This document shows, piece after piece, positions 3,594 to 31,717 of a stretch of 45,732 nucleotides of DNA. The stretch is taken from assembly GCA_025355385.1 (NCBI GenBank), contig JANXZS010000248.1, positions 1 through 45,732 of the forward strand. Reading direction: 5' to 3'. The notes beneath the pieces were generated by a model. The model made no database searches. It was not told the origin of the DNA and saw only the letters and a list, made by a program, of their open reading frames with translations. The DNA comes from Acidobacteriaceae bacterium. GTDB lineage: Bacteria > Acidobacteriota > Terriglobia > Terriglobales > Acidobacteriaceae. The stretch's first letter is position 1; each line of letters starts with the position of its first letter. A program made the translations under genes and the position numbers.

Positions 3594-4847
3594 ATGAGCA
3601 CAGTAGAAAATGCAGTTGCAGCGCCTGCAGACGTTCATCTCCCGATCTACATGGACTACCACTCTACGTCCCCAATGGATCCGCGCGTCCTCGACGCCAT
3701 GATGCCGTACTTCACGGTTAAGTTCGGGAATTCTGCCAGTCGCAACCACTCGTTTGGCTGGGAGGCGGAGCAGGCGGTCGAGGTGGCACGCGGGCAGATT
3801 GCGAAGCTGATCGGCGCCAGTTCCAAGGAGATCATTTTCACCTCGGGTGCGACCGAGAGCAACAACCTCGCCATCAAGGGAATTGCCGAGATGTACAAGG
3901 AGCGCGGTAATCACATCATCACCCAGGTGACGGAGCACAAAGCGGTGCTCGATACGTGCAAGCGCCTGGAAAAATATGGTTACCGAGTGACCTATCTGCC
4001 AGTGAAGGCGGATGGACTCATCGATTTAGACGATCTGAAACGTGCCATGGACGACAAGACGATTCTTGTCACCATCATGAGCGCCAATAACGAAATCGGC
4101 GTAATCCAGCCGATTGCGGAAATTGGCAAGCTCTGTCACGAGAGAGGGATTCTCTTCCACACGGATGCGGTGCAGGCGGTTGGCAAGATCCCTATGGACG
4201 TGCAGAAGATGAATATAGATGTGTTATCGGTGACCGCGCATAAGCTCTACGGGCCCAAAGGCGTTGGTGTGCTCTACGTGCGTCGTCGTAATCCGCGGGT
4301 GCAGATTGCGGCACAGATAGACGGCGGCGGTCATGAGCGTGGCATGCGTTCGGGGACGTTGAATGTTCCCGGTATTGTCGGGATGGGCAAGGCTTGCGAG
4401 ATAGCAGGGCAGGAGATGGAGACAGAGGCCGAGCGACTCACTCGACTGCGCGAGAAGCTTAAGACCAAGCTTGAAGGCGCTCTGGACTATGTCCACGTCA
4501 ACGGTTCCATGGAACACAGGTTGCCCGGCAACCTCAACATGAGTTTCGTCTATGTCGAAGGCGAATCGCTGTTGATGGGTATCAACGATATAGCGGTTTC
4601 CAGCGGATCTGCCTGCACCTCGGCGACGCTTGAGCCCTCCTATGTATTAAAGGCACTTGGTCTGGGCGATGACGTGGCGCACAGTTCTATTCGGTTTGGC
4701 CTCGGAAGGTTCAATCAGGAAGCCGAGGTAGATTACGTCGCGAACAAGGTAATCGATGTCGTACAAAAACTCCGCGAGCTTTCCCCGCTCTACGAGATGG
4801 TCAAAGAGGGCATCGATATTTCCAAAATCGAGTGGCAGGCGCACTAA
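3594..4847 (+). CDS. iscS: Cysteine desulfurase IscS
   Basis: A PLP enzyme that removes sulfur from L-cysteine, giving alanine and a persulfide, and passes it to IscU and other acceptors. Visible signatures are [15 protein letters not shown] at the N-terminus, TSGATESNN, the Schiff-base lysine K217 in [12 protein letters not shown], and the catalytic C341 in SSGSACTSA. The long mobile-loop form is that of group I (IscS/NifS), and the length of 417 fits, with about 17 extra N-terminal residues. The start ATG at 3594 has an AGGAGA site. The C-terminal EWQAH resembles the EWAHH tail that in E. coli helps contact IscU. It is the second gene of the isc operon. Confidence 0.97.
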
Positions 4848-26939: not shown

Positions 26940-27584
26940 ATGGGTACATTGCAGGCAGCCTTTGCTCGCCAGGGGAATATTGATCGTGAGATCGTCTCTC
27001 GGGTACAGCGCGGGGATAACGCAGCTTTCGACGAACTCGTGGTGCGCCACGAAGGGAAGCTGCGCAGCATCGCTTTGCGAATTACGGGAAGTGTTTCCGA
27101 CGCCGAAGATGTTGTGCAGCAGTCACTCATGAAGGCATTTCAGAAGTTCATAAACTTTCGCGGAGACTCCCAATTTTCCACCTGGGTTACCCGCATCGTG
27201 ATTAATGAAAGCCTGATGTTTCTGAGGCGCGAGCGCCGCGAATCGAGGTGTCTTCATCCCTTGCGCGATGAAGACGGCGAGATACTGCCGGAGGTAGAGG
27301 CAACCGCAATCGGGTTGGATCCAGAGTGCACCGCGGAGCGGGATGAACTGGCAGTCCTGTTGTGGAATGCGATTCGCGGATTGCCCAAGACCTGGAGTTC
27401 GGTTATTTTTCTCCATGACATTGAGTCGCGAACTATTGAAGACACAGCTTCCGCACTAGGAATCAGCGTTGCCGCAGCCAAGAGTCGCCGGCTGCGGGCT
27501 CGCCTGGAGTTGAAACGCCGATTGGAGCGGATTTCCTATAGGGGTACCGTGGGAACAACCAGGTTTGCGCCCATCATCCGTTAA
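26940..27584 (+). CDS. ECF-type RNA polymerase sigma factor
   Basis: A 214-residue alternative sigma factor with regions 2 and 4 only. Region 2 spans about 20-85 (AFDELVVRHEGKLRSIALRI, DAEDVVQQSLMKAF, FSTWVTRIVINESLM). Region 4 spans about 135-190 (LPKTWSSVIFLHDIESRTIE, ALGISVAAAKSRRLRAR). The ATG at 26940 has an AGAGGAAC site. No anti-sigma gene follows; the next gene is a methyltransferase 83 bp downstream. This departs from the usual sigma/anti-sigma pair, so its activity may be set at transcription by the neighbouring TetR through the shared palindrome. Target promoters are unknown. Confidence 0.9.
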   Translation: MGTLQAAFARQGNIDREIVSRVQRGDNAAFDELVVRHEGKLRSIALRITGSVSDAEDVVQQSLMKAFQKFINFRGDSQFSTWVTRIVINESLMFLRRERRESRCLHPLRDEDGEILPEVEATAIGLDPECTAERDELAVLLWNAIRGLPKTWSSVIFLHDIESRTIEDTASALGISVAAAKSRRLRARLELKRRLERISYRGTVGTTRFAPIIR

Positions 27585-27667
27585 AGAGGGATAACTGTGC
27601 GTAAGAGCACTCTGTCATGCATAGCAATACGAAATCACCTGTACCATTGCCGTAGGTCGGGGGTCGT

Positions 27668-28309
27668 ATGCAATCCATCATGCCGCACTGCGCAAAGCGG
27701 AAGATCCACTGGGACAGCGTGTATGGGAGTCACGCCGAGCAGGATGTGAGCTGGTTCGAACTCGCGCCCAATGTTTCCTTTGATCTGGTTCGGCTGAACT
27801 CGAACGGCCTGACAGGTTCCATTATGGATGTAGGAGGTGGAAACTCCCACCTGGTGGATCTTCTACTCGAAGCCGGTTTCTCAAATGTTCGTGTACTGGA
27901 TGTTTCCTCTCGGGCCATTCAGATGGCGCAGGCGCGGCTGGGGCAGCGAGCGCGGGAAATCACGTGGATTGAGAGTGATGTGCTCGAGTGGAATGGACCC
28001 CGGGACGTCGACATCTGGCATGACCGTGCAACTTATCATTTCCTCACGGATTTGGCTGATCGAGCACTGTATGCGAAGGTCGCTGCCCGTACCATCGTCC
28101 CTTCCGGCACATTGATCGTGGAGACGTTTGCTCTGGAGGGTCCGCGCTCGTGCAGCGGATTGCCCGTGCAGCGTGCCAGTGCCGAAACAATACAGAACGA
28201 TTTTGCAAGTGACTTTAACTTACTTGAAAGCTTTGTGCGCGAGCACATCACCCCCACCGGAGCAAGGCAACTTTTTCAAGTGTGCAGGCTACAGCGCAAA
28301 TCAAGCTGA
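27668..28309 (+). CDS. Class I SAM-dependent methyltransferase
   Basis: 213 residues with a Rossmann methyltransferase fold. HWDSVYGSHAEQDVSWFE is the characteristic N-terminus of a small-molecule methyltransferase family. The SAM site is IMDVGGGNSHLVDLLL, then VRVLDVSSRAIQMAQ with the acidic residue, and SDVLEWNGPRDVDIWHDRA. A second ATG at 27680 is possible. The substrate is unknown. It lies downstream of the ECF sigma gene and could be part of its transcript, although the 83-bp gap and a GTGC-GTAAGA-GCAC mini-hairpin leave this open. Tellurite/thiopurine-type methylation is one option. Confidence 0.82.
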   Translation: MQSIMPHCAKRKIHWDSVYGSHAEQDVSWFELAPNVSFDLVRLNSNGLTGSIMDVGGGNSHLVDLLLEAGFSNVRVLDVSSRAIQMAQARLGQRAREITWIESDVLEWNGPRDVDIWHDRATYHFLTDLADRALYAKVAARTIVPSGTLIVETFALEGPRSCSGLPVQRASAETIQNDFASDFNLLESFVREHITPTGARQLFQVCRLQRKSS

Positions 28310-28366
28310 AAAGGCTACAGCCCTTGTTCCGCCTGCTTCTATCGGATACCCCGAAGTGGGAGTGTC

Positions 28367-28708
28367 CTACCCGACCAACAAGGACGTGGCTTCGCGATCA
28401 AGAGCCGAGAAAGTGGAGTGTCCACGACGCTCGCCCCGGACTGGGCCGGTCGATAGGGAGTCGACATGTTGGAAAAGACTTTTCGCTGGCTGACCGCGCA
28501 GTTTCATCCATTCTTCCATCAACGCGCGAAGATATTCACGATCCTCGGGACGCACCTTCTCCTGCCATCCGTCGGACGCTACCGCCTTGAGCGGCGTGGC
28601 CGCGTTATCGATGCTCCTAGCGAGAACCAGCCATGCAAAGCCTGTTTCTTGATCCGGGAAAGGCACGTAGTGGATCACCAGGTATTCGCAAGGATTCTGA
28701 GCAGTCAT
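28367..28708 (-). CDS. Unknown small protein overlapping the HipA-like kinase gene
   Basis: 113 residues from ATG 28708 (an in-frame start at 28768 would add 20). It begins MTAQNPCEYLVIHYVPFPDQ, a strand-rich start similar in style to DUF3037 proteins that often accompany HipA-like kinases, followed by PEDREYLRALMEEWMKLRG and the tail STGPVRGERRG. I cannot assign it to a family with confidence. It overlaps the 3' end of the kinase gene by about 92 bp in another frame, on the same strand, so translation is probably linked. The role could be a kinase partner or substrate. Confidence 0.5.
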   Translation of the reverse strand: MTAQNPCEYLVIHYVPFPDQETGFAWLVLARSIDNAATPLKAVASDGWQEKVRPEDREYLRALMEEWMKLRGQPAKSLFQHVDSLSTGPVRGERRGHSTFSALDREATSLLVG

Positions 28709-29573
28709 AAGCCCTTTGTATTGGCTTCCGCATCGGCAAAGGAGCTTTGAATTGGGCTCGCAATCCAATGAGAAGCTGTTGCAGAGTGTGACGTCGTTCG
28801 AGGATGGTTGCCACCACCAACTCCAAGGGAGTCGAACTCCACTCAGGCGGAATCGACGATACGAAAGTGTAAGCCGCCTCCGCGGGAATGGACCAGATTT
28901 TTCTCATCCATTCGCCTACCTGACCGTCTAACCACAGGCCGTCATACATGGTGCGATCGAGGAAAAATGAGACGGCGGGATGAAGATCCCAGCTCCCGCC
29001 ATGCCCGGGACCTCCAAACATGTGTCCATGGTCAAGAAATACTGCACTCAGGGCCCGCTCGTCCGCTTCCTGAATGAAGCACGCTTGTCGGTTATCTGCG
29101 TGCCCACACCACAAATCCAGCAAAAGCATGCCGAGAAAGTCTTCGCGATTCTTGATATGGGCAAACCAGGTTCGCGGCAGAATCTCGTATACCGACCCAG
29201 TGCCCGCCGCTTCCTGCAACCGGGATGCGAAGTGGAGCCCAGCCTTGGGCCGCACCCGGCCGGATTGTGTCTCAAACCACATCTGCTGATTCTGATCCAG
29301 GAAGGCATCGTCGATGGCAACCCGGCTCCACTCAGGAGTTTTCAGGCCGAGCCGTGCCGTCAGCCAGGATCCCAGCGCTTCATTGCCAAGCACGTTCGGT
29401 CCCTGCGGATTACCCTGTAGCTTCACCGCGTACAGCTTTCCGTCGGAGGCGCGCAGGAGAGAGCTTTGAGCACCCCCTCGCATGCGGCGAACAAAGGCGG
29501 CGGCGCTTAGAGTCTGGCCGGAAAAGGACCGGCGATCGGTTACCACTTGCGAAATGCAACGAGCCAGCATCAT
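28617..29573 (-). CDS. HipA-like kinase family protein
   Basis: 318 residues. Catalytic features of a HipA-type kinase are visible: VRRMRGGAQSSLL as a glycine-rich loop, K51 in YAVKLQGNPQGP, E65 in GNEALGSWL, a catalytic loop HADNRQ at 158-163 (D160, N161), and a metal-binding LDHGHMFGG at 180-188 (D181). The kinase should therefore be active, phosphorylating an unknown target. It lacks the full N-terminal domain and the HipB antitoxin of classical hipBA. The frame is open for 40 codons upstream of ATG 29573 without a start codon. The C-terminal 30 residues overlap the small gene at 28708 and may be degenerate. The family assignment is from motif memory. Confidence 0.78.
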   Translation of the reverse strand: MMLARCISQVVTDRRSFSGQTLSAAAFVRRMRGGAQSSLLRASDGKLYAVKLQGNPQGPNVLGNEALGSWLTARLGLKTPEWSRVAIDDAFLDQNQQMWFETQSGRVRPKAGLHFASRLQEAAGTGSVYEILPRTWFAHIKNREDFLGMLLLDLWCGHADNRQACFIQEADERALSAVFLDHGHMFGGPGHGGSWDLHPAVSFFLDRTMYDGLWLDGQVGEWMRKIWSIPAEAAYTFVSSIPPEWSSTPLELVVATILERRHTLQQLLIGLRAQFKAPLPMRKPIQRAYDCSESLRIPGDPLRAFPGSRNRLCMAGSR

Positions 29574-30103
29574 GACGTTGTCCCAGGCAGTAAAGAATCG
29601 TACAAAGTAGAGCAGGCAGTGCGCAGGTGGTGTGAAGACGTGGAATTTCCGGTAACGCTTTTTCAGGATGGATTCGATGTCTTGTTCACCGCGAAATCAG
29701 ATTAGGGCGAATAAAAAGAGAAAGCGAATAAATTGCGAAGACATTGTGGTCGCAGGCCCATAATGGGAATGCGGTCGGAGGCGTGGCCTCCGCATCAGGG
29801 ATAGCCAATTGCACCACCCCAACATCTAGCGGTCCTGTTCCATTTACTAGTTTTAGTGGACTAATTTCCTCGTCAGGCGCGTTGCTGTTTGCGGTAATTC
29901 CGGAGCTTGATACTCGACTTGCCTGCCACCGCGTGAGTTCGTATTTTCGCTATCTGACGCATCCACAGGGCGAAAGCCAACAGAGGTCTGGAGCAAGCTG
30001 GGGAGGGGCGCCCAATGCTACAATTCGATGTGAGCGCTCGCGATGAGTCGAGGGTATTACCTGCCTCCTCGTGGATCGTCACCCTCTAGAGGACTTCCCC
30101 CTT
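29574..30103. other. 530-bp region between the kinase gene and ctpA
   Basis: The first 123 bp continue the kinase frame on the minus strand (29574-29696) with a protein-like composition (ILKKRYRKFHVFTPPAHC, LLYFVRFFTAWDNV), but with no start codon before a stop at 29697-29699. A 7-bp hairpin CGGAGGC-GTG-GCCTCCG lies at 29776-29792. A plus-strand frame at 29744-30046 exists but looks non-coding. A TACAAT at 30018-30023 may be a -10 for ctpA. Confidence 0.4.
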
Positions 30104-31717
30104 ATGCCTTCCCGCACCCGCCGTACGCTATTCTCGTTGGCAGTCTTCTTTGTCGCTTGCGGCCTACTAGGCTCGGTCATCAATAAGAAGGTCGACGCTC
30201 AGTCGGAGGCGGACGAATCCAACCTTCGCGATAGCCTGCGCTCGTTCACCAGCGTGTATGAAGTAGTGGAGCAGAACTACGCTGAGCCGATCGAGGGCGA
30301 TAAGCCGGGCAAAGTCGTGTATGACGGCGCGATTCCCGGCATGTTGCGCGTGCTTGATCCCCACTCTAATTTCTACGACCCCAAGGCCTACGCGAAGATG
30401 CGCGAGGACCAGCACGGCAGGTACTACGGTGTCGGCATGCTGATCCAACCGCAGAACAGCAAAATAGTGGTGGTTACGCCGTTTGAGGGTACGCCATCCT
30501 TCAAAGCTGGCATTCGTCCCGGCGACGTTATTGCGTCCATCGACGGCAAAATCACTGACAACATGAGTTCCGAGGACGTGGCGAACCTGCTCAAAGGGCC
30601 CAAAGGAACGCACGTCCAGGTGACCATGGTTCGCGAGGGCGCCGCCAAGCCACTCGTCTTCGATCTGATCCGCGACGAAATTCCGCACAACAGCATTGAT
30701 TTGAAGTATGAGGTTCGGCCGGGAATCGGGTACATCCACATCACGAATTTTCAGGAGACCACCGGAAGGGAATTGAATGATTCCCTGGACAACTTCGGCG
30801 ACCTGAAGGGGCTGATACTGGATCTGCGCGGCAATCCCGGCGGTCTACTGTCAGAAGCGGTTTCAGTCAGCGACAAGTTCCTGCACAAGGGGCAAGTGAT
30901 CGTCTCGCAGCGTGGCCGCGCCTTCCCGGAGCAGGTCTATCGCGCCTCGCATGGCAACAGTGGTCGGGAATACCCCGTGGTGGTACTGGTAAATCGCGGA
31001 ACGGCCTCCGCAGCAGAGATCGTCTCCGGTGCTCTGCAGGATCATGACCGCGCGCTGATCGTCGGCGAAACGACGTTTGGCAAGGGCCTGGTGCAGACCG
31101 TTTATCAACTGTCCGAGAATACCGGTCTTGCTCTGACGACGTACCACTACTACACGCCCAGTGGCAGGCTGATTCAGCGCAACTACAATGGCGTCTCACT
31201 CTACGACTATTACTACAACCACGACGGCACACCGCAGCAGCAAGATAACTCCAATCGGGAAGTGAAGTTGACCGACTCAGGCAGGACCGTCTATGGCGGC
31301 GGCGGAATCACTCCCGATGTCAAGATTGACACTCCGAAGTCCACGCACCTGCAGGACGTTCTGCTGGAGCATTACAGCTTCTTCAACTTTGCCAAGCATT
31401 ATCTCGCCAACCGCACGGTGGAGAAAAACTTCGTGGTGGACGATACCGTGTTGACAGAGTTCAAGCAGTTCCTCACCGGCCAGCAAATCACCTACAGCGC
31501 TCAGGATTTGACTGCTGTGACGGACTGGGTAAAAGCCAACATCAAGGCTGAGATCTTCACCTCGCAATTCGGTCAGCTAGAGGGTTTGAGGGTCCGCGCC
31601 GACTGGGATCCCATGGTCAACAAGGCGATCGGCTTCCTGCCACAAGCGCAGGCGCTCGAGGAGAATGCCCGCAAAGTGGTCACGCAGAAAGCGAGCATTC
31701 GCAGCAGTGTCAATTAG
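30104..31717 (+). CDS. ctpA: S41-family carboxy-terminal processing protease
   Basis: A periplasmic serine protease of the CtpA/Prc family, 537 residues from ATG 30104. A signal anchor (TLFSLAVFFVACGLLGSVI) is followed by an N-terminal helical part and a PDZ domain (about 100-180, YYGVGMLIQ, AGIRPGDVIASIDGK). The S41 core follows, with ITNFQETTGRELND, LDLRGNPGG, the nucleophile Ser in RGTASAAEIVSGALQD, and the Lys in GETTFGKGLVQT. The long C-terminal region ends in a helical stretch. I prefer 30104 (AGAGGA upstream) over a GTG at 30071 because it places the signal peptide at the start. A role in trimming cell-envelope proteins is expected. Confidence 0.92.
   Translation: MPSRTRRTLFSLAVFFVACGLLGSVINKKVDAQSEADESNLRDSLRSFTSVYEVVEQNYAEPIEGDKPGKVVYDGAIPGMLRVLDPHSNFYDPKAYAKMREDQHGRYYGVGMLIQPQNSKIVVVTPFEGTPSFKAGIRPGDVIASIDGKITDNMSSEDVANLLKGPKGTHVQVTMVREGAAKPLVFDLIRDEIPHNSIDLKYEVRPGIGYIHITNFQETTGRELNDSLDNFGDLKGLILDLRGNPGGLLSEAVSVSDKFLHKGQVIVSQRGRAFPEQVYRASHGNSGREYPVVVLVNRGTASAAEIVSGALQDHDRALIVGETTFGKGLVQTVYQLSENTGLALTTYHYYTPSGRLIQRNYNGVSLYDYYYNHDGTPQQQDNSNREVKLTDSGRTVYGGGGITPDVKIDTPKSTHLQDVLLEHYSFFNFAKHYLANRTVEKNFVVDDTVLTEFKQFLTGQQITYSAQDLTAVTDWVKANIKAEIFTSQFGQLEGLRVRADWDPMVNKAIGFLPQAQALEENARKVVTQKASIRSSVN

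Follow-up and report, generated by a model that had tools for sequence, protein, structure and literature searches.

A compact HipA_2-type kinase and mini-DUF3037 gene pair with a two-frame overlap, a candidate variant of the HipAD toxin-antitoxin system, in an Acidobacteriaceae genome

Two overlapping genes of the window (the whole 45,732-nucleotide stretch of Acidobacteriaceae DNA that was analyzed) encode a HipA_2-type kinase, the putative toxin, and a 113-aa partner, the putative antitoxin. We read the pair as a compact, HipAD-type toxin-antitoxin module of two genes, a reading to which we give a probability of roughly 60% and in which toxicity, neutralization, and phage defense are extrapolated from published HipAD. 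Kinase/DUF3037 pairs as such have already been published, as HipAD, DS-6, and PDC-M66; because the partner in the window has no second domain, the module is a variant of HipAD and not a plain member. The evidence lies in the conserved active site of the kinase, in a family of short partner genes related to DUF3037, in the linkage of the two genes across genomes, and in the kinase phylogeny.

The kinase and its active site

The kinase gene (28617 to 29573, minus strand) is an intact open reading frame of 318 aa from its ATG, which settles the question left by the earlier note of whether the frame truly extends to 28617. Pfam HipA_2 (PF20613) matches residues 28 to 123 with 29.5 bits against a cutoff of 27 (E value, 5.7e-7), and the PADLOC model PDC-M66A matches weakly (E value, 0.0016). 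The AlphaFold2 model (mean pLDDT, 84.8; pTM, 0.83) has a kinase domain at about residues 17 to 280 followed by a C-terminal tail, residues 286 to 318, that is of low confidence and predicted to be disordered. Structural matches are consistent with the assignment: the model aligns with CtkA, CotH, PI4KII, HipT, and HipA (VIA Z scores from 14.1 to about 11), with root mean square deviations of about 3.4 to 4.6 Å over 200 to 216 residues for folds such as CtkA, HipT, and HipA, and Fam20 kinases are the top Foldseek rows. A sequence search of the PDB gave no match and a search with the kinase profile gave weak rows only (HipA 4pu3 and 4pu5 at an E value of 0.65); no relative was found on plasmids or in viral_contigs and genome_contigs, the two contig searches being designed to detect close relatives only.

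The earlier note listed K51, D160, N161, and D181 as retained catalytic residues, which is correct for three of the four. K51 (codon at 29421 to 29423, minus strand), D160 in the motif HADNRQ (29094 to 29096, minus strand), and D181 (29031 to 29033, minus strand) fall in invariant or near-invariant columns among relatives and align with HipA of phage PhiR5_1, whereas position 161 is variable and holds G, N, R, S, H, D, or A. The ATP-binding lysine (K51) and the aspartate at the metal-binding position (D181) are each kept in 103 of 104 aligned kinases. At the catalytic position, D160, aspartate is present in 19 of the 20 kinases associated with the short partner family described below, the remaining one being a partial sequence with neither Asp nor Asn, and also in the HipAD kinases of phage PhiR5_1 and Pantoea. 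We equate D160 with the catalytic aspartate of HipA, D309, on the basis of the HADNRQ motif and the alignment with HipAD proteins, because a direct comparison of the kinase profile with HipA proteins covered the lysine region alone.

The classical hipBA system shares the kinase fold and the catalytic residues with the window kinase but differs from the window in its second gene, since a Pfam scan of the kinase, the small protein, and the neighboring genes found no HipB-like gene next to the kinase, in agreement with the earlier note. Couple_hipA (PF13657) is not among the Pfam matches of the kinase at an E value of ≤1. True HipA homologues (two Couple_hipA matches) are encoded elsewhere in the same genome (C145 and C244), and the kinase profile aligned with two HipA proteins of this genome in the lysine region alone (probability, 43). 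The hipBST system and the short-kinase families HipG, HipI, HipJ, and HipM resemble the window pair in that a kinase core without N-subdomain-1 is combined with a small separate partner, as far as the available part of PMC8262856 describes them. The partners given in that part of the source are HipS, HipS-HIRAN, resolvase-like, or Stl-like proteins, and DUF3037 is not named in it. The small protein of the window has no Pfam match, and no HipS chain is present among its VIA rows, which comprise Foldseek-ranked chains only.

The mini-DUF3037 family

The partner gene (28367 to 28708, minus strand) had been described as being of unknown family, with a first segment reminiscent of DUF3037 partners; the family can now be named, and the suspected relationship is borne out by profile-profile comparison, by linkage in relatives, and by the kinase phylogeny, which also set the module apart from hipBA. 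Scans of the small protein against Pfam, NCBIfam, and PADLOC gave nothing convincing. Its AlphaFold2 model (pLDDT, 88.5; pTM, 0.81) is a single compact domain across the whole length. Foldseek returned no match to this model at an E value of ≤0.001 and VIA-align no row above a Z score of 4.2, and we therefore claim no fold name for it.

The starting point for the family was a weak match in genome G018 (E value, 2e-5 in a single comparison), located directly upstream of a homologous kinase. A two-sequence profile (A2) built from the window and G018 proteins gave matches in 31 of 397 genomes, which were then sorted by neighborhood and profile. Five genomes with long DUF3037 partners (G040, G261, G266, G272, and G319), one with a canonical short partner (G191), and four with unclassified or chance matches (G116, G122, G133, and G281) were dropped. 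The resulting family comprises 24 short, distinct genes from 21 of the 397 genomes of the order (three genes in G125 and two in G283), counts from nonexhaustive searches in which no more than 11 first-look candidates were scored in any genome. In the 24-member alignment G88 is invariant, L85 and P89 are nearly so, and the motif LSVGPLRT near the C terminus is the hallmark of the family; the window partner has it as LSTGPVR (28436 to 28456, minus strand).

Pfam DUF3037 (PF11236) recognized none of the 24 members at an E value of ≤0.1, and no PADLOC model matched the short partner convincingly. When the profile of the short family (23 sequences, with five canonical DUF3037 proteins excluded beforehand) was compared by hhalign with 60 DUF3037 partners of relatives, the two aligned in register over 107 columns with a probability of 97.3 and an E value of 2.1e-11, against probabilities of 0.2 to 0.7 for six controls, one reversed and five with shuffled columns. 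The DUF3037 profile of the relatives in turn matches HipD of phage PhiR5_1 (E value, 8.6e-16) and its Pantoea homologue (E value, ~1e-15), both in a 5-protein set, and the profile of the short family matches the same two proteins weakly (E values, 0.005 to 0.012). A later search with the latter profile matched 7 of 396 genomes, four with the short type (G000, which is the genome of the window, G103, G125, and G131), one with a canonical short DUF3037 (G007), one with a long DUF3037 (G127), and one, G720, with an unrelated zf-HC2 protein (L155) at an E value of 2e-5. Given this false match, weak single-sequence matches to long partners (E value, ~1e-3) carry little weight by themselves, and because the profile can raise such matches, the case for DUF3037 is built on the profile-profile alignment and its register, together with the linkage. 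Judged by these sequence relationships, the family is a divergent, minimal form of DUF3037 that PF11236 misses, and we name it mini-DUF3037.

Nine of 11 pairs of mini-DUF3037 relatives have dN/dS ratios of 0.28 to 0.68, the other two pairs being saturated; the window gene has no close relative and is in none of the pairs. The associated kinases have ratios of 0.13 to 0.34 in seven pairs, and from the higher ratios of the mini genes it follows that the partner changes faster than the kinase. The 23 other family members, the dN/dS ratios, and the confident AlphaFold2 fold argue that the small gene is more than a chance open reading frame. The empty library searches and the 27% of the frame that overlaps the kinase gene are what one would expect if the small frame were not a gene and its similarity to relatives a by-product of the kinase coding sequence, but we regard this as highly improbable, since the LSTGPVR motif lies outside the overlap, the family also exists without any overlap, the predicted fold is confident, and dN/dS is below 1.

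Gene order and overlap

A same-strand HipA_2-type kinase adjoins 21 of the 24 mini genes, with the kinase first in 18 pairs and the mini gene first in three (L140, L133, and L134). The mini genes without a paired kinase are L131 and L132, which have none within 4 kb, and L130, which lies close to a contig end. L131 (4036 to 4392) and L132 (minus strand, ~4001 to 4354) are orphan genes that are 70% identical and have a dN/dS ratio of 0.28.

In the window the ATG of the partner at 28708 lies inside the kinase gene in a different frame, and the partner stop codon ends at 28367. The kinase frame ends at 28617, and the two genes thus share 92 bp (28617 to 28708, minus strand), exactly as the earlier note had it. 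The shared DNA encodes kinase residues 288 to 318 plus the stop codon and partner residues 1 to 30; it makes up 27% of the small gene and covers the first strand of the partner and the start of the second. Residues 6 to 14 form the first strand of the confidently predicted partner fold and are encoded by the same DNA as the kinase's predicted-disordered tail, which is probably not needed for catalysis. Promoter-like sites were not found in 27500 to 30150, and scans for terminators and repeats gave nothing useful.

The earlier note asked whether the overlap is kept in relatives. Judged by start codons, it is in 14 of the 18 kinase-first pairs, and the other four have a gap; the choice of start is uncertain in several. 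The gapped pairs keep the small gene, and within the family the situation that the note saw as contrary to its proposal, a kinase ending early with the small gene absent, was not seen. As a measure independent of the start codon, we took how far the kinase stop lies from the first conserved aromatic residue in the partner domain. In 13 of the 18 kinase-first mini pairs, one of which, L137, has its kinase in two pieces, the kinase frame extends beyond this residue by 30 bp or more (74 bp in the window), and the same holds for 1 of 61 canonical DUF3037 pairs (L094, with a split kinase). The long overlap is therefore characteristic of the mini group and no general feature of DUF3037 pairs. The exact length of 92 bp is common to the window and three loci of one other genus; since partner N termini vary in length, we do not argue that it is ancestral. 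The overlap changes no more slowly than the rest in three close pairs, which hold too few changes to speak for or against dual-frame constraint.

Two short canonical DUF3037 genes lie on the strand opposite to their kinase, a 144-aa gene upstream and divergent (L013) and a 127-aa gene downstream and convergent (L028). Of the five partners assigned to the canonical short class, L032 and L045 are incomplete, being truncated at contig ends.

Kinase phylogeny

A quick maximum-likelihood tree was computed from 104 kinases, from which the two-piece kinase of L137 was omitted for its length. Nineteen of the 20 mini-associated kinases in it, that of the window included, lie on one side of a branch with an SH-aLRT support of 100; the kinase of G018 lies elsewhere. 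The 19 include the L135 kinase, which is partial and has a very long branch. The kinase closest to that of the window by identity is L134, at 40%.

Accessory segment and genomic neighborhood

Genome G001, from the same genus, matches the gene order of the window collinearly between 16668 and ~27524 and again from ~29944, and has ~85 bp in place of the intervening ~2.4 kb (27525 to 29943). The segment carrying a methyltransferase-fold gene, the mini gene, and the kinase gene is thus accessory. The search with the two-sequence profile found no mini gene in G001 at its threshold. The methyltransferase gene (27668 to 28309, plus strand; Pfam Methyltransf_25 E value, 1.1e-7) is convergent with the kinase/mini module. 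It was considered as a third component, but a search of 19 other wide loci found no convincing relative (best E value, 0.53), and it is probably a passenger. The nearest scanned genes are this methyltransferase, an ECF-like sigma factor, and an S41 peptidase. Near 16 mini loci, comprising 101 open reading frames, no clear defense-island signal was found; PADLOC gave single matches to 19 other models, and the kinase's own PDC-M66A was the commonest model.

The genome G125 has three mini modules within ~80 kb (C2, ~5.03 to 5.11 Mb; L136, L137, L139, L159, and L160) together with a broken mini copy.

If the module were in decay or a selfish addiction element, without any current part in defense, this would explain the patchy distribution, the three pairs and the broken copy in G125, the split kinase of L137, and the isolated position between unrelated genes. 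The window copy is nevertheless intact in both frames and has all its catalytic residues, and the mini genes of relatives are under purifying selection, so that we consider decay or selfishness quite unlikely as an account of the pair.

Comparison with HipAD and proposed mechanism

HipAD (DS-6; PADLOC candidate PDC-M66) has the same design as the window module, namely, a kinase-first bicistron with a DUF3037-domain partner and a kinase that keeps the catalytic aspartate, and both kinases are of the HipA_2 type and without the HipA N-terminal subdomain. The record of phage PhiR5_1 names such a pair HipA toxin and HipD antitoxin, with an overlap of 4 bp, compared with 92 bp in the window. The window partner differs from HipD in having 113 aa and not ~275 aa, without the C-terminal half, which in the DS-6B partner is a DUF1829 domain according to the accessible text of PMC13092281. 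It is also unrecognized by Pfam DUF3037, and its kinase matches PDC-M66A only weakly. The available portion of PMC12548924 reports for the Retron-Sda1 operon that deletion of the DUF3037 gene was toxic and that deletion of the kinase gene abolished defense. Likewise, the available sections of PMC13092281, which cite Brenes and Laub 2025, state that DS-6, renamed HipAD, defends against phage and that a kinase mutant in a predicted catalytic residue loses this ability. Short DUF3037 partners are not described in the accessible parts of the literature on DUF3037 and HipAD, in which PMC12548924 and PMC13092281 are the relevant sources.

Most likely, the window pair works like HipAD using the DUF3037 core alone. 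By analogy with the published system, free kinase would inhibit growth, and the DUF3037 protein would bind and silence it. Upon a trigger, which for HipAD is phage infection, silencing would fail, and the kinase would phosphorylate a host target and stop growth. As the partner is without the C-terminal half of HipD, we predict that the DUF3037 core alone suffices to neutralize the kinase and that the regulation exerted through that half is missing; the overlap would tie the two genes together. If so, the module would be the most compact natural version of a HipAD-like system, and the part of HipD that silences the kinase would be predicted to be the DUF3037 core and not the C-terminal half. 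The mini family is an additional group that escapes the DUF3037 and PADLOC models applied here, and the long overlap of its two frames would exemplify natural overprinting of a putative toxin and its antitoxin.

Asn-type kinases with long DUF3037 partners

Homologues of the window kinase are present in 72 of 100 relatives. HipA_2/DUF3037 pairs with a long partner, including one in the window's own genome, occur in the same phylum and have a homologous kinase and a homologous partner, usually with the kinase first. They differ from the window pair in a partner of ~270 aa, in little or no overlap, and in asparagine at the catalytic position in 48 of 57 kinases. Overall, asparagine takes the place of D160 in 54 of the 104 related kinases (NANGRQ for NADGRQ; for example, L043, L010, L120, and L127). 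These proportions do not come from a random sample, as the kinases were collected by their similarity to the window kinase and from the surroundings of mini matches, and the sequences are related and nonindependent, with nine changes on the tree. All 54 Asn-type kinases retain K51, D153, and D181, and six Asn-type pairs have kinase dN/dS ratios of 0.09 to 0.12, indicative of strong purifying selection. Aspartate is found at this position in the HipAD kinases of PhiR5_1 and Pantoea and in a Peribacillus relative. From these sequence patterns, the Asn-type protein may be a pseudokinase that is under constraint and has a long DUF3037 protein as its partner.

The wide occurrence of HipA_2/DUF3037 pairs in the phylum, the strong constraint on the six Asn-type pairs, which suggests a resident function, and the mini type's lack of defense-island context all fit a nontoxic regulatory kinase, with the DUF3037 core as a small modulator that tunes housekeeping phosphorylation. 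For the window pair we think this unlikely, given that the mini type is patchy (21/397), is part of an accessory segment in the window, keeps the catalytic aspartate, and evolves faster, and that it is homologous to HipAD, which becomes toxic after deletion of the DUF3037 gene (PMC12548924, in its available part).

The HipAD-type reading can be extended, tentatively and with considerable doubt, to a scheme with two arms: in the compact family the DUF3037 core would be the sole antitoxin, its N-terminal strand overprinted in the 3' end of the kinase gene so that toxin and antitoxin are hardly separable, and the same-phylum relatives would be a widespread, constrained, and nontoxic pseudokinase/DUF3037 pair with a resident role. 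If the reading holds, the contrast with the Asn-type relatives would make it testable whether HipA-like kinases became resident pseudokinases. The genome of the window itself encodes an Asn-type kinase that is followed, at a contig end, by the start of a DUF3037 gene (G000:C266:1-1137), and the rest of a DUF3037 gene lies at another contig end (G000:C148:5-235), perhaps the same gene split by the assembly.
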